Shown here: positions 1,131 to 20,654 of the stretch, piece by piece
How positions within the stretch are numbered: the stretch's first letter is position 1
Layout: every line of letters starts with the position of its first letter
Virus record (IMG/VR): IMGVR_UViG_3300032288_001675
Span: 1-32,843 of that record
Source of the DNA: a virus
Length of the DNA stretch: 32,843 nucleotides
Strand: one strand, 5' to 3'
Position numbers and translations under genes: made by a program
The notes under the pieces: model-generated
The model's database searches: none
Told to the model about the DNA's origin: nothing
The model's input: the letters and a program-made list of their open reading frames with translations, nothing else

Positions 1131-1427
1131 TCACTCTTCTGATTCTTCTGAATCCTCTAGCTCTTCCTCGGTCTCCTCTTCGGCCTCGACTTCCTCTTCC
1201 TCATTTAGTCCTTCGCCAACGATATCAAAGTTCTCATTGATAACGTCTAGGAAGTAATCAACGTGCTCTTGGATTTTCTCTTCTGAGATTGGCTCCTCTA
1301 GGTGTGACTCGCAGAGGGGGCAAACGTGAGCTTGAGCCTGTGGGGCTTCGGTTGACTCTGAAATCTTGGCGGCTGGCTTACCGACAATCTGGCTGACATA
1401 ATCTTCAGTTAACTGGATTCCTCTCAT
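1131..1427 (-). CDS. 67: Acidic prohead core protein, gp67-like
   Basis: The protein is 98 residues with an extreme acidic tail: 17 of residues 76-98 are Glu or Asp. T4 gp67, a small prohead core protein, has a similar acidic C-terminus and lies in the same place, upstream of gp68 and gp21. Unlike T4 gp67 as I know it, this protein has a CPLC pair at residues 36-39 followed by His42 and His55, which could form a small metal-binding knuckle, and a helical segment (EEKIQEHVDYFLDVINENF). Possible prohead protease sites are KISE-STE and IVGE-GLN. The start is well supported: AGGAG lies 6 bases before the ATG, and a late-promoter-like octamer lies about 27 bases upstream. It is the first gene after the only 76-base gap in this part of the minus strand. 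The family call is inferred from composition and synteny. Confidence 0.66.
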   Translation of the reverse strand: MRGIQLTEDYVSQIVGKPAAKISESTEAPQAQAHVCPLCESHLEEPISEEKIQEHVDYFLDVINENFDIVGEGLNEEEEVEAEEETEEELEDSEESEE

Positions 1428-1503: not shown

Positions 1504-1794
1504 CTATCCTGAATATACATTCCTTGTAGGGTCGGTTACTTTAGCAACATCCCCACAAACTAATAAGTCAGTTTCCCTAAATAAGGGTGTATTACCTATA
1601 AATACTCTAGAGCTTCCCTGGCCTGCCGCACTAGGATGGGCACCATTGCCAGGGTGGTCTGGTGCTACCCCATAAATATCTCCGGTCACTACTGCTAGTT
1701 GCCCGCCAATAAAAACTTTGTGTGGGTTAACAGGCTCAGCAGCATGGGTTGCAGTGCTTAAATCACCTTTAATTATAGCGCGGAGGGGTGGCAT
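1504..1794 (-). CDS. PAAR-domain spike-tip protein
   Basis: The protein is 96 residues, the usual size of a stand-alone PAAR protein. It begins with MPPLRAIIKGD, the proline-led opening typical of PAAR domains, and contains repeated short Gly/Pro beta segments (HKVFIGGQLAVVTGD; SRVFIGNTPLFRETDLLVCGD). Histidines at about residues 17, 25, 47 and 53 and Cys80 could supply the buried metal site that such domains use to sharpen the tip. PAAR proteins cap the trimeric gp5/VgrG needle of contractile tails and secretion systems. The likely partner spike is encoded about 24 kb away (25408-26463), so the two would meet during baseplate assembly. The gene overlaps the end of the 996-aa gene by 26 bases and has no strong ribosome-binding site, which suggests translational coupling to it. 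Confidence 0.9.
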   Translation of the reverse strand: MPPLRAIIKGDLSTATHAAEPVNPHKVFIGGQLAVVTGDIYGVAPDHPGNGAHPSAAGQGSSRVFIGNTPLFRETDLLVCGDVAKVTDPTRNVYSG

Positions 1795-4759
1795 TTCTGT
1801 CTATTAGGGTAACGATTGTTGATTCATCATCGTCTAAAGTATCATAGGTCTCTTCTGACGATTGAGTTAATACATCCTTAATTTTTATGTTATTTCTAAA
1901 TCCTTCTGATAAAGAATTTAATAAAGTATTTGGCATATCAAATATTAATTCTCCCATTTTTTCAATTGGAATTCTTCTATAAATATCATACCAATAAAGG
2001 GAGGACGGGTTATGAGTTGTAATTAATTTATCTATAACCTCTCTTACTAAGTATGATGCACCGTGGGATGATACGGAAGAGACTTGATTATTGTAACTTC
2101 CATTTGCATAGCTATAGAAAGATTCTTTTAGCCAGTCTGCCTCAGAATCATACTTAAAAGTTAACGCTTGAGGATTTCTTTCTTCTAGTAATCCAACTTT
2201 AAATTCATTGTTTGAATTAGCTAGGTAATCTATCTTTAATGGATTTATCATTTCTTCATTATCTGATAGATGTATTGGTGAATATAAAGTTAATTTTCTA
2301 GTGACATAATCCTGATCAAACTGTTCTATCTTTGAGGATCCATTAAATGGATTAAATCTAGAACCCTTAACTGGCGTTATAATTAATGCAAATGGTATAT
2401 TTTTCTCGGTTATATTATTAGAGATTATGCTCTTATTATTATTTAGCTCATTAAATGCAATATCTTTTTGTTGATAAGTTAAGCTGGAAGAGTCTAATAA
2501 ATATTTTAATATAGAATCTTTAAAGTCTACATTTACTTTTGTAACTGAGAATCCATTTGTATTAGTGTGATCATCTATTAATGTCTGATCAGTTAGCAAA
2601 TCGTAAGTAGCTTTTATTTCTGTTATTAGTGGATTTTGTGTTGTAAAAGAACTAACTGAACTTAGATTTAATTTAAAGTACATGGGGGCTACATCATAAG
2701 TGAAGCTAATCCCAGACGTAAACTCAGTAACGCCAGAGGAAGACTTTGCTGTGATGTAGAACTTAGGGTCTTCATTTAAAATTGAAAGTGCTTCATACCT
2801 TCCCGCTGGAGTTATATATCTTAATGATAAATCTATATCATAAACCAGTGGAACATAGTTCCCATCAATTGTTTTTATTGGTAAATAGTATCCTGGACCT
2901 ATACCATTTTCTGCGAACACAGGATCTACGCTAGACGGATCCATGTATACGCCAGGATTAAATACCTTAAGATCTTTCAATTCATATGTTTCTGTTAAAA
3001 CATAAGTTTTTGCATTAACATCTTCATTTAGTCTTTTCTGCCTATTTAATAAATTTCTGTTTAATTCATTTATTGAAAAACTGAATGGATCAATTATATT
3101 ACTTTCAGCTACAGATAAAGCATAAGTTTCTAGTAAATTTTGAGTAGCTGGGCTAAAGGTTTTGAATTTATCGTTCTTTTGCTTCTCAGCTAATGAATGA
3201 TAATACTGTGGATCAAAATCATCTAAAGTGTTAGTGAGTATATGTTTATTTAAAGCTTGTAAAAAGAATGTGTTACTCACTCTGACACCAGCTATATCGT
3301 GTATATTACTAAATGATTGTAGTAAATTATCATTTATGGATACAGCTATTTTTTCTAGAGTTAAAGTCTGTAAAGGTGTTTCGCTCCAAGAGGAGTTTGT
3401 GTTGTATTTATTAAATATGTATTTTAATTCTTCTACTACAGCTTCTTTGAATATATCTAACCTGTAATTGTTTGTAACAAAATAGGATTCTCTAGTTCTT
3501 AAAACCTCATTAACAGAGAAGAAGTTTCTTCTTACATCATAAATACTATTGCTACTGTTATTTATTTTAGATACTACATTATTATTTGATTTCCCTAACT
3601 CTTCTTGAATGTTTATATTAGTTGATTTTTGATTATTTGATATCTGTTGAGTTATATTAGAAAATTCAGATCTAACAGTATTCGTTACTTGCCCAGTCTG
3701 GTTTGCGTTTGGCTCCCCCTGATTTCCGCCACCCCCAATTATTACACCCTGCAATACACAATTATTAACAACTTTTGGCGTGCAAGCTGTTTCACATTGA
3801 GATCTACTGCTGTAAGCATCAGTACAATTAGAAGGCCAATAAAATTGTCCTGTTTCTTGATCTCTTATTTGAGTGCATGGTACACAAGATTGAGAATAGA
3901 CTGTTCCAGTATACCCAGGTGGGCAAATTAAATTTGTTCTAGTGCATTTATACCTTGTTGCAGCACCCCCACCAGTTATTGGTCCAACTGGTCTCCTGGG
4001 CCTGGGTACTACTCCAGGTTGTGGGATTGTATCTTGTGGGCCTCTATATTGTCCGCCAACTGGTTTGGTTGTGCAGTTTCTAGTACTTCTGCAATTAAAT
4101 ATACAAGAAGCTAACGGCTCACAAGATCCTAATGTTTGATTAATGATAGGATTCCCGTTAGGCAGTCTTGAAGGGGGAATCCATTTACCCTTTGCATCCC
4201 GAAGGCAAGCTAAACATTCTTTCGTTACAATCGAACCCGTGGTTCTTACAGGTCCAGTTGTGGGTGGGCAAGGTCTCAAATTTGTTGTAACACAAATATA
4301 TAAGGACTCTTCTCCACCCCCAGGACGCCCTCCACCACCAGGACCACCAGGACCACCAGGACCACCTCCAGGGCCTCCAGGACCAATAGGAGGACAATCA
4401 AATGACATTGGTCTGCATCCGTGACTGCCATTACTATTGGCAACACACAATTCTCTTGAATCATGTATGCACCCAACTTCATTTTGTGCTGGATTCCCTC
4501 TTCCACTATCACAAGGACGGCACTCGTAGACTATTTCTTTAGGCCCTCGAAAAGGTTGTTCTACGGTCGGGGGGCATAACTCTTGCCTAACTTGAACACA
4601 TTTCCATTTAGGCTGATAAGGGTCTGGAAGTCTAAATATTTGATTACCTGGATCTGGTCCTGGTATTATAACATTTACTACTGGAGGAGTTATAATCTCC
4701 CCGGTTATTGGCTTTTGACCGGGAAGATATTCTCCACAGTTTGTAAATTTTAAATGCAT
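1769..4759 (-). CDS. Large cysteine-rich, Gly-Pro-rich virion protein of unknown family
   Basis: The protein is 996 residues with two very different halves. Residues 1-334 hold all 25 cysteines; residues 335-996 hold none. Beyond Cys8, the cysteines fall into three groups of eight (residues 54-122, 156-229, 272-334). Each opens with an aromatic residue, x, C-x(6-7)-CPP, and then C-x2-C after 12-17 residues. A stretch of eight Gly-first triplets (residues 126-149) separates modules 1 and 2, and a Pro/Gly-rich linker precedes module 3. Residues about 350-470 are Asn/Ser-rich and may be coiled coil; the rest looks like a mixed alpha/beta structural domain. There is no signal peptide. It lies between a fibre-like gene and the PAAR gene and ends inside the PAAR start, suggesting a peripheral baseplate or spike-associated protein. 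The function is unknown; binding to a host surface is inference. Confidence 0.78.
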   Translation of the reverse strand: MHLKFTNCGEYLPGQKPITGEIITPPVVNVIIPGPDPGNQIFRLPDPYQPKWKCVQVRQELCPPTVEQPFRGPKEIVYECRPCDSGRGNPAQNEVGCIHDSRELCVANSNGSHGCRPMSFDCPPIGPGGPGGGPGGPGGPGGGGRPGGGEESLYICVTTNLRPCPPTTGPVRTTGSIVTKECLACLRDAKGKWIPPSRLPNGNPIINQTLGSCEPLASCIFNCRSTRNCTTKPVGGQYRGPQDTIPQPGVVPRPRRPVGPITGGGAATRYKCTRTNLICPPGYTGTVYSQSCVPCTQIRDQETGQFYWPSNCTDAYSSRSQCETACTPKVVNNCVLQGVIIGGGGNQGEPNANQTGQVTNTVRSEFSNITQQISNNQKSTNINIQEELGKSNNNVVSKINNSSNSIYDVRRNFFSVNEVLRTRESYFVTNNYRLDIFKEAVVEELKYIFNKYNTNSSWSETPLQTLTLEKIAVSINDNLLQSFSNIHDIAGVRVSNTFFLQALNKHILTNTLDDFDPQYYHSLAEKQKNDKFKTFSPATQNLLETYALSVAESNIIDPFSFSINELNRNLLNRQKRLNEDVNAKTYVLTETYELKDLKVFNPGVYMDPSSVDPVFAENGIGPGYYLPIKTIDGNYVPLVYDIDLSLRYITPAGRYEALSILNEDPKFYITAKSSSGVTEFTSGISFTYDVAPMYFKLNLSSVSSFTTQNPLITEIKATYDLLTDQTLIDDHTNTNGFSVTKVNVDFKDSILKYLLDSSSLTYQQKDIAFNELNNNKSIISNNITEKNIPFALIITPVKGSRFNPFNGSSKIEQFDQDYVTRKLTLYSPIHLSDNEEMINPLKIDYLANSNNEFKVGLLEERNPQALTFKYDSEADWLKESFYSYANGSYNNQVSSVSSHGASYLVREVIDKLITTHNPSSLYWYDIYRRIPIEKMGELIFDMPNTLLNSLSEGFRNNIKIKDVLTQSSEETYDTLDDDESTIVTLIDRNATPPRYN
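3758..4600 (-). repeat. Three divergent 8-cysteine modules in the protein
   Basis: This is a protein-level repeat within the 996-aa gene. Module 1 has Cys at 54, 62, 80, 83, 97, 105, 115 and 122; module 2 at 156, 164, 182, 185, 213, 219, 223 and 229; module 3 at 272, 279, 292, 295, 312, 322, 326 and 334. The shared core is C-x(6-7)-CPP-x(12-17)-C-x2-C. Spacing after the core varies, so these are diverged copies and not a recent DNA duplication. Confidence 0.72.
4313..4384 (-). repeat. GC-rich Gly-Pro repeat tract (collagen-like triplets)
   Basis: The DNA carries tandem copies of a 9-base unit close to CCAGGACCA, coding eight consecutive triplets that begin with Gly (residues 126-149 of the 996-aa protein). 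It is a sharp GC-rich island in an AT-rich genome. It probably forms a flexible or polyproline-like linker between cysteine modules 1 and 2. It is too short and too Gly-rich for me to claim a collagen triple helix. Confidence 0.75.
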
Positions 4760-4760
4760 A

Positions 4761-7331
4761 CTACTTCAGAGTTAATACCGGCAGCTTCTGACTCAAGCTA
4801 GTAGATGCGCCATAACCTCTTGGTATTCCTACAACTTCAAATGTTACTGTCGGATATAATGTTGCACCAACAGCAGAGTTTCCATAAACATCATCTTCGT
4901 CTAGGAAGTCTGTATTGAAATCTTCAGCTATTTCTTTAGTTATAACTGCGAATCCGTTAAAGCTTATAATTGAGCCTCTAGAATTTCTTGTAGGCTGCCT
5001 GTAAAGATAAGGAGTTACAGCAGCACTTGTAGCTGTATCTGGTTGGACTGTTGCATCTATAGCATTCCATGCAACAAATATGGTAAATTCATAAGAGCCT
5101 TCAATATTGGCTTTTGAAATCCACACGTTTGAGATGCCAGCAGCCCCTGCTCCAAGACCCGCTGTTTCGTAGTCATTCTTGTGGCTTAGAGGAACGCAGT
5201 TATGTAGCTTTACATTTACTCTGTAATCCTCCATCCAAGAATCAACTTGTGACTTGTCAATTCTAATTGTTTTCTTTACCCAATAGAAGCTTACGAATCC
5301 GCCAATGGTGCTTGTAGTGACATCGGTGGCGGCTACAGGTGATGGAGCAGTCCCTCCTCCTGTCCCTACACTGTTTCCAAATGGGTCAAGTGCTCTTCTT
5401 AATTTTCTAGCAAATCTTCCTAGCTTTCTCTTTCTTCTTTGTATAATGTTTCCGCCACCTCCCCCCGTCCCAGGGCTAGTCGAGGTTCCTTGGACTTGGT
5501 ATTGCCCACCAAGAACCGGATAAGTTGAGAACAATTCCCCAACTCCAGAGATTCCTATCTGTCCTTCAGCTTGATAATCATAACCATATCCTGCAAAGTT
5601 ATAATCATCTGCCTTTCTTACGGCAAAGTTAATATAGTCATGAGGGAATTGTCCCCCGGCAAACAAACCCGTAGAATCTGCCCAATTAGCAATATCCCAG
5701 TCTGGGAGTTCACTTAAAGGTAAATCGCCAGGGTAATCATATATTTCTTTTACTTTACCTATAAGCTGTTGATCTGTAAGCCCAGGGAAATACTTTCTTT
5801 TGATAAAGCTCTTCAATGTTCCCTCTACTCCCCAAGACGTTCCTCCTTGAACATAACCAGCCGCTATAATTTTAGGTTGAATTGGTAATGAGTTTACTCT
5901 TGAATCTAAAGCTGTTATTTGTTGATTTATTTGTTTAGAAACTTCATCAACATAATTTTCTGTAACCACTGGATTAGCTAATGAAGCTGGTGGAGTCGCT
6001 GCCGCAAGACCTGACCTTTCATTGTAGCTTAGTTCCGTTGTTCTAAAGAATGGTCTAATATCAATTACATCATCAGCAGTTAGTATATTTGTTAGGCTAG
6101 TGTTGACGGACGCATTCTTCTTTACAAGTATGTAAGCAATTGGAAGTATTGATTGCCCAATTAAAGCAAAACTATTTGATTCAAGATTTTCAGATATTAG
6201 AGGAGTCAGATTTAAGAGGTCATCTGGTGAAGGGAATGATCCTCTTATCGTTCCGGCAGAGGTAGTGAAACCAGTATCCAAAGCAAGTTCATCTGAAATA
6301 TTTGGGAGGATCATCGGATTACCTTCCGAATCAACAATCCTAACCCCAGTCTTTGGTGCGCTGTTGGTTGTGGTTTTTAAGTTTACTCCAATTCCTGCTC
6401 CTCTTACAATACCTAAAGTAGCAGCATTTATCTTTGATGGGACATTATTTGAGTAGCGTGATATCGTAGCGGAGGATGCATCTATTGGCTTTGAGTATAT
6501 GAATAATAAATCTATTCTTTGATTAGCAATTAAATTTACTCTTTGGCCCGTTTCATCTATGTAATAAAAATCTTCTTCATTAAATGGAGGGATTTCAATT
6601 GTTAATTCTTCTGGAATATCAACAATAGATGTTCTAGTTATACCTCTCCATCTCTTTATAAACTCAGACTCTAAAGCTGGGAGGCCCATCCCTCCGAATA
6701 GGTCGGTGAAAGTTGTAGCAATTAAACTTGAAGCATTAGTATTATAAGCGGGGAATACACCACTTAAATTTGGGAATGGTGTATCACTTCCAAATATTAA
6801 CTGCGTTGATCTATACCCAGGTGAACCACTTAATAAATAGCTTGATCTTCCGTCTAGGTCTGTAACTGGAAATGTGAATGATCTTTCAAATAGACCATTC
6901 ATATTTGTTGCATTTGAAGATATATAAGTCTTAAATTTATTTAATATAGATTTTATTTCTGCATCTCTGTTTGTTTTTACAGAGTACTTATTGCTTTGAG
7001 CAATAGTAAATCCATCAATTTGAGTTAATTTTTGAAAAGCATCTATGTTATAAGCATCGTTTATTCTGGCACTATAACGTCCTGGGCGGACTCTCAGGAT
7101 GTTATCATTGCCTTCGACATAGGGCTGTAGCTCAGAGAAATTAGCTCTTCCTAAAGATTGAATTTGCTCAGGCTTGATAAGGTTAGCTACTTGATCCTTT
7201 AAGAAGTTACAGTTTTCCTGTAATTGCTTTAAAGGGATATTATCTACCTCGTAATAGTACGGATCGTTAGCCTTGAAATATCTAACAGGATCAGTATACT
7301 TAAAAACAGAATCAAAAAATTGTCCAGCCAT
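4761..7331 (-). CDS. Fibre-like virion protein with baseplate-anchor motif
   Basis: The protein is 856 residues. The N-terminus contains YYYEVDNIPLKQLQENCNFL (about residues 25-44), which matches in pattern the N-terminus of the upstream 1160-aa beta-helix protein and probably anchors both to the same virion site. Around residues 395-450 is a conserved-looking segment (VIDIRPFFRTTELSYNERSG) that I associate with large-phage structural proteins, followed by a short helix. Residues 615-665 contain two Gly-rich linkers flanking a strongly cationic amphipathic stretch (about 631-648). The C-terminal 180 residues look like a beta-rich domain (SFYWVKKTIRIDKSQ and following). Only 1 base separates its stop from the next gene. 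No enzymatic motif is visible. A short-tail-fibre or baseplate-peripheral role is inferred from position and architecture. Confidence 0.78.
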   Translation of the reverse strand: MAGQFFDSVFKYTDPVRYFKANDPYYYEVDNIPLKQLQENCNFLKDQVANLIKPEQIQSLGRANFSELQPYVEGNDNILRVRPGRYSARINDAYNIDAFQKLTQIDGFTIAQSNKYSVKTNRDAEIKSILNKFKTYISSNATNMNGLFERSFTFPVTDLDGRSSYLLSGSPGYRSTQLIFGSDTPFPNLSGVFPAYNTNASSLIATTFTDLFGGMGLPALESEFIKRWRGITRTSIVDIPEELTIEIPPFNEEDFYYIDETGQRVNLIANQRIDLLFIYSKPIDASSATISRYSNNVPSKINAATLGIVRGAGIGVNLKTTTNSAPKTGVRIVDSEGNPMILPNISDELALDTGFTTSAGTIRGSFPSPDDLLNLTPLISENLESNSFALIGQSILPIAYILVKKNASVNTSLTNILTADDVIDIRPFFRTTELSYNERSGLAAATPPASLANPVVTENYVDEVSKQINQQITALDSRVNSLPIQPKIIAAGYVQGGTSWGVEGTLKSFIKRKYFPGLTDQQLIGKVKEIYDYPGDLPLSELPDWDIANWADSTGLFAGGQFPHDYINFAVRKADDYNFAGYGYDYQAEGQIGISGVGELFSTYPVLGGQYQVQGTSTSPGTGGGGGNIIQRRKRKLGRFARKLRRALDPFGNSVGTGGGTAPSPVAATDVTTSTIGGFVSFYWVKKTIRIDKSQVDSWMEDYRVNVKLHNCVPLSHKNDYETAGLGAGAAGISNVWISKANIEGSYEFTIFVAWNAIDATVQPDTATSAAVTPYLYRQPTRNSRGSIISFNGFAVITKEIAEDFNTDFLDEDDVYGNSAVGATLYPTVTFEVVGIPRGYGASTSLSQKLPVLTLK

Positions 7332-7332
7332 A

Positions 7333-10300
7333 TTAGTTCCACTTCTCTAGGTCAAATGTATTTAGAGATCCTATACCTCTACCTCTTGGTTTTCCTCCAG
7401 AGATATTATTGTCTAGCACTACAGTATCACCACCAGCAAATTCATAATAGGGGTAGTAAATTGCTACTGTCTTAGCTAGACCGGATTTTCCTACAGTATT
7501 ATGTTTAGCATTTGCAAATAAGTTTGCAGCGGACTCATCAAGCAGAGCTCTTATTTCTCTTGGATTTGATACTACAGCAGAAGCGTAATAGAATGCTGAA
7601 GTTGTCACTCCATTCCCGCTTGCAACAAGTATTGATTTATAGAGTCCAGACACAGAGGAATCAATAATTATGTTAGAAGAGAACTGATAGCCTTGAGCAT
7701 AAACTTGTGGTATATATCCAGCCTGAGCCCCAGTCGCTACACCCCAGTTTATGAACGGATCTACAGAGAAATAAAGTCTAAAGGGTCCTTGGTTGGTAGC
7801 AGAGGCATTTCCAAATACGCTTGAAGTGTTAACTCCGTAGTAATCTAGAATTGACAAGCTGCTCGTATCTGGGGTTGAAGAAGGTGCTCCGCTTCCTCCC
7901 CAAGTTCCACTTGGCCCAAAGTAAGGTACAACTCCTGGGTAGTTTCCGCTTACTGAAACATACCTTGCAGCTAACTTTGATGAATCATTAATAATCCATA
8001 CGAATGTCTTTGAGCATAAACCATCAGTAGAGCTTCCATCATATATCACTGATGAAGCATTCCACCAGCCACAGGGGAAGTGTACGTTGTCTACATTTAC
8101 CTTTGATCCATTTAATGCCCTTAGACAAACTCCACCATAAGTCGTGGAGCTAAAGTTATTTGTAGCTGGATTTCCTATGTACCCACCTGCTGTCAGATTA
8201 TAATTTTGTGCTAGGTTATTATTATCTAATACATTATTATTTGTGTATAAACTTAATCCTAGATCATTATTTGGTAATGGTAATTCCGTGTAAAGATTTA
8301 CATCATTTGGATTTGGGTAGAATTGCACACCCCCTCCAGAAGTGTAAAGTTGTAATAAATAAGTTATTTGTGGTAAGTCTGGACCATAGTTTGAAAGAAT
8401 GTCATTGCCAAGAGCTGACCTCCCCCACAAATCATAATAGTGGCCCAGATCCTTCATGGCGATAGTGGATCCATGGTCAGCAACTAAGCAAGCTCTTGTT
8501 GAATGGAATTCAACAGAAGTATGGTTCTTCTTATCACCAAGATTAAATCCACTTATATCTAAAGTTCCGTTTCTTAATCTGTGTGGAGTAATTTCTAAGT
8601 TAGAGTTGTTATCGACAAGAGCATCAACTCCATATTGAGCAACAACAGTTGGGCCTTGAATCTTTATTGTTGAATTCTGATTAGCATAAAGTCCAGCTAA
8701 AGTTTGTTGAAAGTTTACAGAACTAGGCCCAAATAATTTTGTGACATAATCTTTAGTGCCTTGTAATGTTGCTTCTGAGTTATTGACTACTGACAATGCA
8801 CATCCAAAGTAACCTTGATTTGTTGAATTGAAAGAATCTGAATCATTAGTAATAGCTAAACTTATTGCCTTAAACTTTGAGTTAGAGTCAACCATTATGG
8901 AGGGGACAACATTCTCTCTAAGCACACCATCAATAGAGCTAAACGTGAACATCCCAAACGATTGATCACAAACAAATCGTTCATACTTATCTGGCATAGA
9001 AGCCATGTAAGTTGGTTCAAATACAGAATTAACTAATCTCAAATGCGCTCCATTTTGGAAGAAGGACATCTGATGGAATCTGTATGTAGAATTGTTATAG
9101 CCAGTTAAAGTTGGCCTGTAGCCTTCTTTGTTGTAATTAAGCTTAGAGTTTACTAAGTATATTCCTTCTTTTTGGTTATATTTGCAATTAAGTGAGTCAA
9201 TACTGATTGTTGAGTTAACCCCATCTAAACCAACATAGTTTCCATAGATGTTTATTCTTCCACTGTGATCTAAAGTGGAATTCTGAAGCACTACTCCAGC
9301 TTCCGTGTTAAGCTCAGAAATAAAATTGTGGGCGTGGACATATGCAGCTAAAGGGGCTACACCAGCAGGCGGATTAGCTTCAGTTCTTCCACCAAAAATT
9401 CTTGAGTTAACTGCTCTTAAACCAATATCATTTCTTGATAAGCAGAATAACCATGAGGCGGCAGGGACAGCAGAAACACCAATGTAAGAAAAATTGTAAG
9501 TATATAATGCACCACTTATGCTATAGAGATAATCTCTTTCATAAGTTGAGCTTAAATTCAACTCACTGTTAATTAGTTCTATTCCAATACCATAGTTACC
9601 TTGTGACTCTCTATCTAATTTATTGAAAAGTTTAGAAGACCATGTTCTTCCAACTCTGGTGCCGTCAGTATTGAACCCATAGTTTCTATAAGCTATGAAT
9701 CCTCTGGTTAAGGTAACTCTTGAATTGTCTGCATAGAGGCCAGCTTTTCTGCATCTAGCAACAGAACAGTTCTCCAGTACAACTACAGACTTTCTGATAT
9801 CTATTCCATTCTCTGTTCCATTGTAATTTCCACCACCATCTACAGTAAAGTTTCTTATATAGATTGGGCCATTACAATTATAAATTTTTATTTGATCTAG
9901 TCTATTACCATAAACTATTGGAACCGTTGGCCTAGTTAAACTATCTTCTTTCCAAAAAATCTCACTTCTAGAGAGATCATTCTCTTTTATAGTAGAGGCA
10001 TCATACCCAGTAATTTCATATGTATCTAAGTTTGATTCGTAGTTAGTAAACGCCACCACAGCACTGGGTTGGTCCCATCGAGTAAATGGCTGAACTACAT
10101 TGTTTCTCGCAGCCAGAGCAGCAGTTAATCTTTGATTTATACCTTGATATGGCTTGCGGCAGAAAACAGTTAAGTTGTTAGTAATTCTTGAGTCATAGCC
10201 AGAAACAATAGTTGTACCACTCATAACTGGGATATTTAAAGAAAGTATTTTTGCTTTCTTTAAATTAGTTGGAACTGATGGAACTTCAACAGTTGGTATA

Positions 10301-10815
10301 TTATCATTCAACGTTGAGTTATCATACAGAATAGATGAAGCTAAACCGTAAGCACCTCCAGCACTTTTCTCTTTATAAAATTCATAGAGATTAGTAACTG
10401 TATCCATTTTAGCAAAGTTTCTATTGATTATTTCAATAGAGCCTTTTGGTCCAAATGTTCTGTTTGATAAAGCTAGAGTCCCAAGGTTTCCAAAGCTTCC
10501 TACTTCAATAATGTAAGGAGCATTAATAACTTCTGGTAGTGAGTTTAAACAAGCACTTAAGGTTGTAAATATGTTTGTGTTGCACCCTGATGTAGCAGTA
10601 GCAGATACCACTAAAGCAAACCCATTAATTGATGAAGTCGGGTGCCCTAATCTCTCCCATAGTAATTGAGTTCTTTCATCTAGATCATATATTGGGAGAT
10701 TATCCTGTTCCCAGTTGTAAAAAGAACTAGTATCAAACTTGGTTACGTTAGGGGTCCAGCAACCATAAATCTTGTTAGAGCCTACGCTTGTATAAATATC
10801 ACTTACGTTTAGCAT
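7333..10815 (-). CDS. Parallel beta-helix tailspike-like protein
   Basis: The protein is 1160 residues. Residues about 33-57 carry FYNWEQDNLPIYDLDERTQL, the same anchor pattern (DN-I/L-P-x2-x-L-x-E) as the next protein downstream. From about residue 305 to 780 there are many short turns of a right-handed beta-helix of the pectate-lyase type, with alternating hydrophobic strands and Asn/Gly/Ser turns, for example IYIRNFTVDGGGN, VVVLENCSVARC, AGLYADNSRVTL and GIYLVNSKLNYN. Such folds in phage tails often bind or cleave surface polysaccharide. I cannot identify catalytic acids, so depolymerase activity is not claimed. The C-terminal 350 residues are Ser/Gly/Asn-rich, probably a trimerisation and receptor-binding region. 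The gene is in the block B operon, 4 bases after the 206-aa gene. Confidence 0.83.
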   Translation of the reverse strand: MLNVSDIYTSVGSNKIYGCWTPNVTKFDTSSFYNWEQDNLPIYDLDERTQLLWERLGHPTSSINGFALVVSATATSGCNTNIFTTLSACLNSLPEVINAPYIIEVGSFGNLGTLALSNRTFGPKGSIEIINRNFAKMDTVTNLYEFYKEKSAGGAYGLASSILYDNSTLNDNIPTVEVPSVPTNLKKAKILSLNIPVMSGTTIVSGYDSRITNNLTVFCRKPYQGINQRLTAALAARNNVVQPFTRWDQPSAVVAFTNYESNLDTYEITGYDASTIKENDLSRSEIFWKEDSLTRPTVPIVYGNRLDQIKIYNCNGPIYIRNFTVDGGGNYNGTENGIDIRKSVVVLENCSVARCRKAGLYADNSRVTLTRGFIAYRNYGFNTDGTRVGRTWSSKLFNKLDRESQGNYGIGIELINSELNLSSTYERDYLYSISGALYTYNFSYIGVSAVPAASWLFCLSRNDIGLRAVNSRIFGGRTEANPPAGVAPLAAYVHAHNFISELNTEAGVVLQNSTLDHSGRINIYGNYVGLDGVNSTISIDSLNCKYNQKEGIYLVNSKLNYNKEGYRPTLTGYNNSTYRFHQMSFFQNGAHLRLVNSVFEPTYMASMPDKYERFVCDQSFGMFTFSSIDGVLRENVVPSIMVDSNSKFKAISLAITNDSDSFNSTNQGYFGCALSVVNNSEATLQGTKDYVTKLFGPSSVNFQQTLAGLYANQNSTIKIQGPTVVAQYGVDALVDNNSNLEITPHRLRNGTLDISGFNLGDKKNHTSVEFHSTRACLVADHGSTIAMKDLGHYYDLWGRSALGNDILSNYGPDLPQITYLLQLYTSGGGVQFYPNPNDVNLYTELPLPNNDLGLSLYTNNNVLDNNNLAQNYNLTAGGYIGNPATNNFSSTTYGGVCLRALNGSKVNVDNVHFPCGWWNASSVIYDGSSTDGLCSKTFVWIINDSSKLAARYVSVSGNYPGVVPYFGPSGTWGGSGAPSSTPDTSSLSILDYYGVNTSSVFGNASATNQGPFRLYFSVDPFINWGVATGAQAGYIPQVYAQGYQFSSNIIIDSSVSGLYKSILVASGNGVTTSAFYYASAVVSNPREIRALLDESAANLFANAKHNTVGKSGLAKTVAIYYPYYEFAGGDTVVLDNNISGGKPRGRGIGSLNTFDLEKWN

Positions 10816-18584: not shown

Positions 18585-20654
18585 ATGGCTAAAATTTCTG
18601 ATAATCTGAGCTTAAAAAGAAGTAGAGAGCCGAATCATTCTTTTATGAATTCAGAAGATATGTTCTTAAAAAGCTCCAAGTCAGCTTCTGCTTCAATAAG
18701 TGAGATAGGGCCATGTCTATACAAATATGATTCAAAATGCTTAACAACTAAATTTCAAGCATCATCTATAAACACAAATAACTTAACTTATAATCAAGAG
18801 AGAAGACCGTTTTTTGAAGATCAGTATGCTTGGCTAACAAATCAATACGATCCATCTACAACTCAATACCCAATCTACTATGGATCTGGAACATTAGCGT
18901 CTAATGAATACCCATATGCTGGTTTGCTTTCGACTGGCTTGGGGTATGCTATGGATATAAGTGCAGCAATATTAAATGGAAATCATGGCAGGAAAATAGA
19001 TGAATTTCAATCCAATATGTTTGGTAATGTGAGAAGACAATTTAAATTAAATACTTTTGAATTATCTAAAAATCTTAATGGCGCAATAGATTGGTGGAAT
19101 ACAAGACTTAATGCTAGTGATAGTTTAGAAGATGGAATTTTCATATCTCATAGGGGTACTGGCTGGGGAAGACAAATGTTTTTAGACCCAACTTTTTATG
19201 AGGGTTATGGATTAAACGCTGATAACGGATTGTTATCAAGATTATTCGGCGTACCCCCTGGAGCTACTGACGGAATCCCCATGAGTGCCACAATCCCACC
19301 TATCCCAAAAACATATCATAATATTCTCCCTGGGGGTGCTGGCGGCAACGATGCTATTTATAATTATGGTGGAGTTTTTAATTATCATACTTCTTCACAT
19401 TTGTTTATCATTGACGGACAAAATGCAATACCAATATACACAAAAGATTATGAAGAGGATGGTAAATACCATGTAATTCAAAGTTGTAGAAATGTTGAAT
19501 TCTTACAATCTGTTTCAGAAGGAGATTATTTCTCCCTAAATCCAAACGCAGCGTTTGAACTTGCTACTAATTTTGATGTTGATGCATCAGCAGATACAAA
19601 AACATATTCTACTTTTAAGAATAGTTTAGCTAGTGGAGACCTTGCTACTAATTTAAATTCAGCAGAGAGAGGTGGTAGTTATGATATTCTTGCTTTCAAT
19701 AAAAGCACAATATCATTTCAAAAGTTAGTAATGGATTTCTTAGGGGATGGAATACACAGAGTTGTAAATGCATTCTATCAACCATTTAGATACTATAAAG
19801 ACCAATACTATAATTATTCTTCTCTTACAGGACAATCAGTATCTGCAATGCTTGCAGCAGTCCCAGATACAAATATGCAGAGATTCTTAATTGGTGGAGG
19901 GTTTTGGATGGATTGTAGATTTGATAAAGTTTACACCTACTCCCCCCTAAGCAATCAGTTAATTGATTCTGATAATGTTTTTGTAAGTGGAATACAACTT
20001 TCTGCTTTAGGAAATGGAATCACAATTAATATGATTTATCCAGGAGGTTACCTGGATGAGAATAGTTATGTAAATTACAAATTTGAATATCTTAGTGGTG
20101 TAAATCCGCTGGGGGTGAGCAGTATTGCACAAAAATTCTTCAAAGGTAGTCCATACTATTTAAGTTCAAATTTATTATTTACAATACAAGAAAGAACTCC
20201 CAGTTGCCCTGGAGGTCTGCCTTCAATATGCGTAGCTCATGGATATTTACTAAATGACAAGGTATTCTCTGATCCATTTACAAAAGGATATAAAAAAGGT
20301 TATACCTTAAATTTAGTCTATAATCAGATAATAACAAGTGGAACTCCCGGTACAGCTAATTATGGAAGAGGATATGAATTATTCTTTAATCCAATATTCT
20401 CATCGACAGAGATAATTAACAGTCAATGGGGTATGAATGTAGTTGGTATGCAAGGAAATTTAGCATTCTGCGAGAAAGGATGGACTGCCTGTGAAGTTTT
20501 TGTTATAGTTGGAAAAGATAAAGAAGAAGTAATTGAAAAAATTCAATACCTAGTAAACAACTACAATATAGGAGAATTTATAGATCCTAAAGCAGAAATT
20601 CCTGACATAATTTATAATTATACCATGCCGTTTAAGGTTGGTAATGTATTCTAA
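18585..20654 (+). CDS. Large virion-like protein of unknown family, on the opposite strand
   Basis: The protein is 689 residues, rich in Asn, Ser, Tyr and Gly, and is the only complete plus-strand gene here. I do not recognise it. There is no signal peptide or membrane segment. The N-terminal 45 residues are Ser/Lys-rich and may be disordered; the rest is beta-rich, with many aromatic-Gly turns (HRGTGWGRQM, PYAGLLSTGLGYAMD, RFLIGGGFWMDCRF). Residues about 625-665 look like an alpha/beta unit (CEVFVIVGKDKEEVIEKIQY). AGGA lies about 8 bases before the ATG. It has its own late-promoter-like octamer and converges on the GH-like gene with overlapping stop codons. Composition resembles the neighbours, so recent acquisition is not obvious. 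A surface-exposed structural or receptor-binding role is a guess from position and composition. Confidence 0.72.
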   Translation: MAKISDNLSLKRSREPNHSFMNSEDMFLKSSKSASASISEIGPCLYKYDSKCLTTKFQASSINTNNLTYNQERRPFFEDQYAWLTNQYDPSTTQYPIYYGSGTLASNEYPYAGLLSTGLGYAMDISAAILNGNHGRKIDEFQSNMFGNVRRQFKLNTFELSKNLNGAIDWWNTRLNASDSLEDGIFISHRGTGWGRQMFLDPTFYEGYGLNADNGLLSRLFGVPPGATDGIPMSATIPPIPKTYHNILPGGAGGNDAIYNYGGVFNYHTSSHLFIIDGQNAIPIYTKDYEEDGKYHVIQSCRNVEFLQSVSEGDYFSLNPNAAFELATNFDVDASADTKTYSTFKNSLASGDLATNLNSAERGGSYDILAFNKSTISFQKLVMDFLGDGIHRVVNAFYQPFRYYKDQYYNYSSLTGQSVSAMLAAVPDTNMQRFLIGGGFWMDCRFDKVYTYSPLSNQLIDSDNVFVSGIQLSALGNGITINMIYPGGYLDENSYVNYKFEYLSGVNPLGVSSIAQKFFKGSPYYLSSNLLFTIQERTPSCPGGLPSICVAHGYLLNDKVFSDPFTKGYKKGYTLNLVYNQIITSGTPGTANYGRGYELFFNPIFSSTEIINSQWGMNVVGMQGNLAFCEKGWTACEVFVIVGKDKEEVIEKIQYLVNNYNIGEFIDPKAEIPDIIYNYTMPFKVGNVF

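Follow-up and report, generated by a model that had tools for sequence, protein, structure and literature searches.

The 32.8-kb IMG/VR virus fragment analysed here (the window) encodes on its minus strand a 996-aa protein with 25 cysteines (Table 1). These are found at positions 8, 54, 62, 80, 83, 97, 105, 115, 122, 156, 164, 182, 185, 213, 219, 223, 229, 272, 279, 292, 295, 312, 322, 326 and 334, and the last 662 residues are free of cysteine; the probability by chance of all 25 falling within the first 334 residues is 7e-13. Apart from a lone Cys8, they fall into three modules with eight cysteines each, which open with WKC-x7-CPP, YIC-x7-CPP and YKC-x6-CPP, respectively, followed in each case by C-x2-C. 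The full module pattern can be written as aromatic-x-C1-x6/7-C2-P-P, C3-x2-C4, C5, C6, C7, C8. Both the grouping and the opening motif agreed with the first-pass annotation of this DNA, whose interval for the modules (3758–4600) runs exactly from Cys334 to Cys54. The cysteine content of the protein was 2.5 %, compared with 0–2.0 % in the other proteins of the window that were examined, the second-highest value belonging to a 98-aa ORF with two cysteines; among the large proteins of the window it alone stood out (0–1.5 % in the others).

Table 1. Features of the cysteine gene and its immediate neighbours in the window
Feature	Coordinates	Strand	Basis
996-aa protein: N-terminal motif with lone cysteine, three eight-cysteine modules and C-terminal domain	1769..4759	-	
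N-terminal motif with lone Cys8, residues 1-20, FTNCGEYLPG	4700..4759	-	
Cysteine module 1, residues 52-122; inferred disulfides 54-115, 62-122, 80-105, 83-97	4394..4606	-	Cysteine co-loss in homologues; strand-strand-helix in full-length model
Gly/Pro linker, residues 123-153, 81 % G+P, model confidence low	4301..4393	-	
Cysteine module 2, residues 154-229; inferred disulfides 156-223, 164-229, 182-219, 185-213	4073..4300	-	Cysteine co-loss; full-length model
Gly/Pro linker, residues 230-269, 40 % G+P, model confidence low	3953..4072	-	
Cysteine module 3, residues 270-334; inferred disulfides 272-326, 279-334, 292-322, 295-312	3758..3952	-	Model of residues 268-337, pLDDT 91.7; cysteine co-loss
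Connector, residues 335-405, low confidence	3545..3757	-	Full-length model
Cysteine-free C-terminal domain, residues 406-996 (~590 aa)	1772..3544	-	~30 % identity across the family
PAAR-motif gene; 26-bp overlap with the 3' end of the cysteine gene	1504..1794	-	
856-aa structural neighbour, upstream of the cysteine gene; query for syntenic homologues	4761..7331	-	

Genes for a protein matching GPW_gp25 (E=1e-9), a gp6 homologue and a P2-gpI-like protein were found upstream of the cysteine gene, which lies in a contractile-tail cluster with gp25, gp6 and spike genes as expected of a baseplate protein; longer frames of 278–290 aa contain the PAAR match in the relatives L002, L007 and L114. What supports the label of tail protein used in the first-pass annotation is this gene context (gp25, gp6, P2-gpI-like and PAAR neighbours). 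Modular tail fibres and baseplate proteins whose genes lie close to PAAR spikes likewise combine, within a baseplate gene cluster, a conserved structural part with variable modules that are probably exposed, but here neither the C-terminal domain nor the modules had a significant PHROG, Pfam or PDB match.

The 996-aa protein had no meaningful match in Pfam, PHROGs, NCBIfam or PDB sequences, whether used as a single query or as a 46-member family, and PDB sequence searches returned sub-threshold noise only. The whole protein gave no match by tblastn against 50,697 cultured phage records or in a first scan of IMG/VR viral contigs, and tblastn with single modules gave no credible match in phages. 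No recognisable family member was present within 41 kb around the gp6 gene of the 595-kb phage LR756511. The statement in the first-pass annotation that the module is not known from any phage family was borne out for PHROGs, cultured phage genomes and BFVD, and searches on cysteine-rich phage tail repeats found no earlier description in the literature collection covered. Homologues were reached solely via synteny, using the 856-aa upstream neighbour as query in IMG/VR. This search yielded 55 viral loci, in most of which the next gene encoded a homologue built in the same way; a profile scan returned 50 partly overlapping loci. One relative (L161) is located on contig NZTP01000017.1, which was binned with a flavobacterial Altibacter MAG; this may be a hint to the host or a contamination, and host assignment from the contig was not accepted, as it may reflect a binning error.

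The lone N-terminal cysteine (CG-x-PG) was present in all 44 complete core-family homologues, and the motif C[G/R]-x(1-4)-P was found at 43 of the 44 starts examined, whilst the C-terminal domain usually contained zero or one cysteine. Between these two elements the number of modules, carried on Gly/Pro linkers, varied from none to five or more. The first-pass annotation had held that homologues lacking the eight-cysteine pattern would speak against a real domain; some homologues (L041, L122 and L127) indeed had no module at all, but the spacing was conserved wherever modules occurred. In L147, the cysteine part (29 cysteines; 3285–4769) and the C-terminal part (no cysteine; 4803–6743) were separate ORFs in different frames, which suggests that the cysteine region can exist as a gene of its own, unless the split is an assembly frameshift.

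In order to compare the modules slot by slot, an HMM built from seed modules was used to segment 101 module copies, which share ancestry both within proteins and between relatives (so that a shuffle probability would be no more than indicative), and the presence of each cysteine was scored. C2 and C8 were both missing in 40 of the 101 copies; two apparent discordances (L025 and L052) were a parsing artefact, C8 being present. C4 and C5 were both missing in 25 copies, with a single discordant case (L121, module at residue 252), and C1 and C7 were jointly absent in six copies once two assignments had been corrected by eye. C3 and C6 were retained in all 101 copies, an invariance that is partly built into the HMM. 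Segmentation artefacts were mended by reading the sequence, and concerned C2/C8 and the last-module C1 in L025 and L052 and one slot in L133. When kin copies were grouped, 55 clusters resulted, of which 21 lacked C2/C8 and 15 lacked C4/C5, all concordantly (the L121 copy excluded). The total number of N-terminal cysteines was odd in all 44 complete homologues and took 11 values (1, 5, 7, 9, 11, 15, 25, 33, 35, 37 and 45). The simplest reading of the paired loss and of the odd totals is that a full module would contain four disulfides, C1–C7, C2–C8, C3–C6 and C4–C5, with one N-terminal cysteine left unpaired. The proposal that these are real domains of the disulfide type is strongly supported by the paired loss across homologues.

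Structure prediction for module 3, based on a 38-sequence alignment, gave two strands (3–10 and 20–27) and a helix (52–58), with C6 located within the helix and C7 just past it; this placement is compatible with a helix clamped onto both strands. A full-length model (46 sequences, pLDDT 72) had the strand-strand-helix arrangement in all three modules and a largely ordered C-terminal domain, the linkers being of low confidence. The module model was ordered, and not disordered as would have told against the modules in the first-pass annotation. At E <= 0.001, Foldseek found no match for module 3 in PDB or BFVD, or for the full-length model in PDB.

Module content differed between close relatives. 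Relatives with C-terminal domains 86–87 % identical differed by a whole module (L021 vs L008 or L017; L005 vs L047): L021 and L008, at 87 % identity in this domain, nevertheless have 15 and 9 cysteines, and L005 and L047, likewise at 87 %, have 15 and 11. Mean identity over 69 pairs was 0.64 for the C-terminal domain, 0.63 for the upstream structural protein and 0.46 for the N-terminal cysteine region. The C-terminal domain thus matches the upstream structural protein in conservation, whereas the cysteine region is far less conserved; we infer that this domain forms part of the virion structure and that the array lies exposed. Linker length varies too: the near-identical phages L119 and L120 have a 16-residue difference in a GPTTTGPTGPSTGG-type collagen-like linker.

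The first-pass annotation had offered three explanations for cysteine arrays in a phage tail, namely metal binding through the C-x2-C pairs, resemblance to an extracellular matrix or host protein, and oxidation after lysis. A reduced, metal-stabilised knob holding zinc or another metal would suit the cytoplasm, C3-x2-C4 resembles a zinc knuckle, and the four cysteines retained in the minimal module (C1, C3, C6 and C7) would suffice for one site. Binding through C-x2-C, however, predicts the joint loss of C3 and C4, which was not seen; C4 was instead lost together with C5 whilst C3 stayed, in 25 of the 101 copies. Losses moreover occurred in twos, not fours, six-cysteine modules of two types were common and no significant zinc-ribbon profile match was obtained, so that metal binding is disfavoured and we regard it as very unlikely. 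Under the second explanation, the module would be an extracellular host domain, Kunitz-like or of another type, that the phage has captured or imitates, with a role as inhibitor or mimic. Kunitz domains have disulfides I–VI, II–IV and III–V, and in their core the first cysteine is paired with the last and a middle cysteine with the penultimate one, in a C-x3-C that follows [FY]-x5. The proposed C1–C7 and C3–C6 bonds would correspond to I–VI and III–V of Kunitz/BPTI (PF00014), and the module shares the [YF]-x5-C-x3-C end; the four-cysteine core nonetheless lacks an equivalent of II–IV, and the eight-cysteine form adds C2–C8 and C4–C5. The best score with the Pfam Kunitz profile (E=0.1, 13.2 bits against a cut-off of 21) came from one four-cysteine module of the relative L005, with no match in the 996-aa window protein. 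Several Kunitz chains were among the weak, non-significant PDB profile matches, but influenza B HA2 scored equally, and the best Foldseek match of module 3 in PDB had an E value of 1.9, with no Kunitz domain among the matches listed. The eight-cysteine profile, which worked on the phages as a positive control, had no match in 149 genomes from the family of one relative-bearing MAG, and the four-cysteine profile had none in 198 genomes from the phylum of this MAG. With no significant match in Pfam, PDB sequences or Foldseek, and no trace other than a sub-threshold likeness to the C-terminal motif of Kunitz domains, a host origin or mimicry appears highly improbable; the Kunitz likeness is a resemblance, not membership.

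This leads to the question of redox state. By inspection, the 996-aa protein has no signal sequence and must therefore be made in the reducing cytoplasm, and the proposed disulfides would not be expected to form in this bacterial compartment, where the tail assembles. Oxidation after lysis would be the default. The Agrobacterium phages Milano and 7-7-1 have virions with extensive disulfides, and in Milano some of these need reduction before the tail can contract (PMC10811340, PMC12796354). The phage studied here would be alike in being a large contractile-tailed phage with a disulfide-rich virion protein made in the bacterial cytoplasm, as judged from sequence covariation. In Milano and 7-7-1, however, the cysteines occur throughout sheath, baseplate and capsid, with bonds both between subunits and within chains, whereas the 996-aa protein has tandem small knots in one protein whose neighbours are mostly cysteine-poor; enrichment of cysteine across many structural proteins, as in Milano-type virions, was not seen in the window. 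The cysteines might, as in the Milano sheath and baseplate network, cross-link adjacent subunits instead of forming knots within modules. Cys38 of the Milano short tail fibre, which is bonded to baseplate wedge proteins (PMC10811340), provides a precedent for such bonds, and the lone N-terminal cysteine would be a natural candidate; paired loss inside single modules and the parity of each chain nevertheless indicate intramodule bonds, which, together with the cysteine-poor neighbours, makes cross-linking quite unlikely as the main use of these cysteines. It also seems unlikely that the disulfides are formed before lysis, via an oxidising host compartment or a phage thiol oxidase. A catalyst would make it easier to form so many disulfides within one chain that lacks a signal sequence. 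Evr1_Alr (Erv1/Alr oxidase) had no match in 15 records of relatives, but these are fragments and the control genomes gave no match either, so that this negative carries little weight.

We consider probable, taken as a whole, the explanation that the 996-aa protein belongs to the baseplate or a tail fibre of a contractile-tailed uncultured phage, placed in the virion by gene order, and that it bears an exposed array of disulfide-knotted modules which is oxidised after lysis. The C-terminal domain of ~590 aa would be the conserved, virion-integrated part and the N-terminal third a beads-on-a-string array of small modules. Each module would consist of a β hairpin with a helix held above it by C3–C6 and C1–C7, trimmed by two optional disulfides, C2–C8 and C4–C5, and modules would be gained, lost and shortened in whole disulfide units. 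The protein would be synthesised and assembled in the reduced state in the cytoplasm and oxidised upon release of the virion. The exposed, fast-evolving array would most likely serve as a protease-resistant spacer or as an adhesive decoration meeting the host surface, and the lone conserved N-terminal cysteine is probably kept for a bond with another subunit. A bolder version, which we put forward tentatively and hold to be possible rather than probable, is that the modules represent a disulfide-knot fold family not described before and restricted to a large uncultured phage group, forming an exposed array that evolves by whole knots or disulfides and passes from floppy to rigid through the redox change at lysis.

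Arrays of this sort, made up of small disulfide knots, are characteristic of secreted proteins of eukaryotes. The module described here has no counterpart in the databases that were searched, and its cysteines are gained and lost two at a time among related phages. A knot array on a phage tail-cluster protein, with a copy number that varies among close relatives, raises the question of how and when the phage oxidises its particle. The co-loss of cysteines yields a complete and testable map of the bonds in a domain family that has no solved relative, and the module would offer a compact redox-dependent domain for structural work.

Several other proteins of the tail cluster were noted. A single 689-aa ORF (18585–20654) lies within the cluster on the opposite (+) strand and had no informative Pfam match. 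Near the prohead-protease end of the cluster, an acidic 98-aa protein (1131–1427, minus strand) has a C-x2-C that was invariant in 46 of 46 aligned sequences, a possible metal site. The two large upstream proteins encoded on the minus strand at 4761–7331 and 7333–10815 have in common an N-terminal motif of the E-x-D-N-x-P-x3-L type, which is perhaps a common baseplate anchor. The latter protein (1160 aa) has ten cysteine columns, two of them invariant, that are retained in half or more of its homologues.
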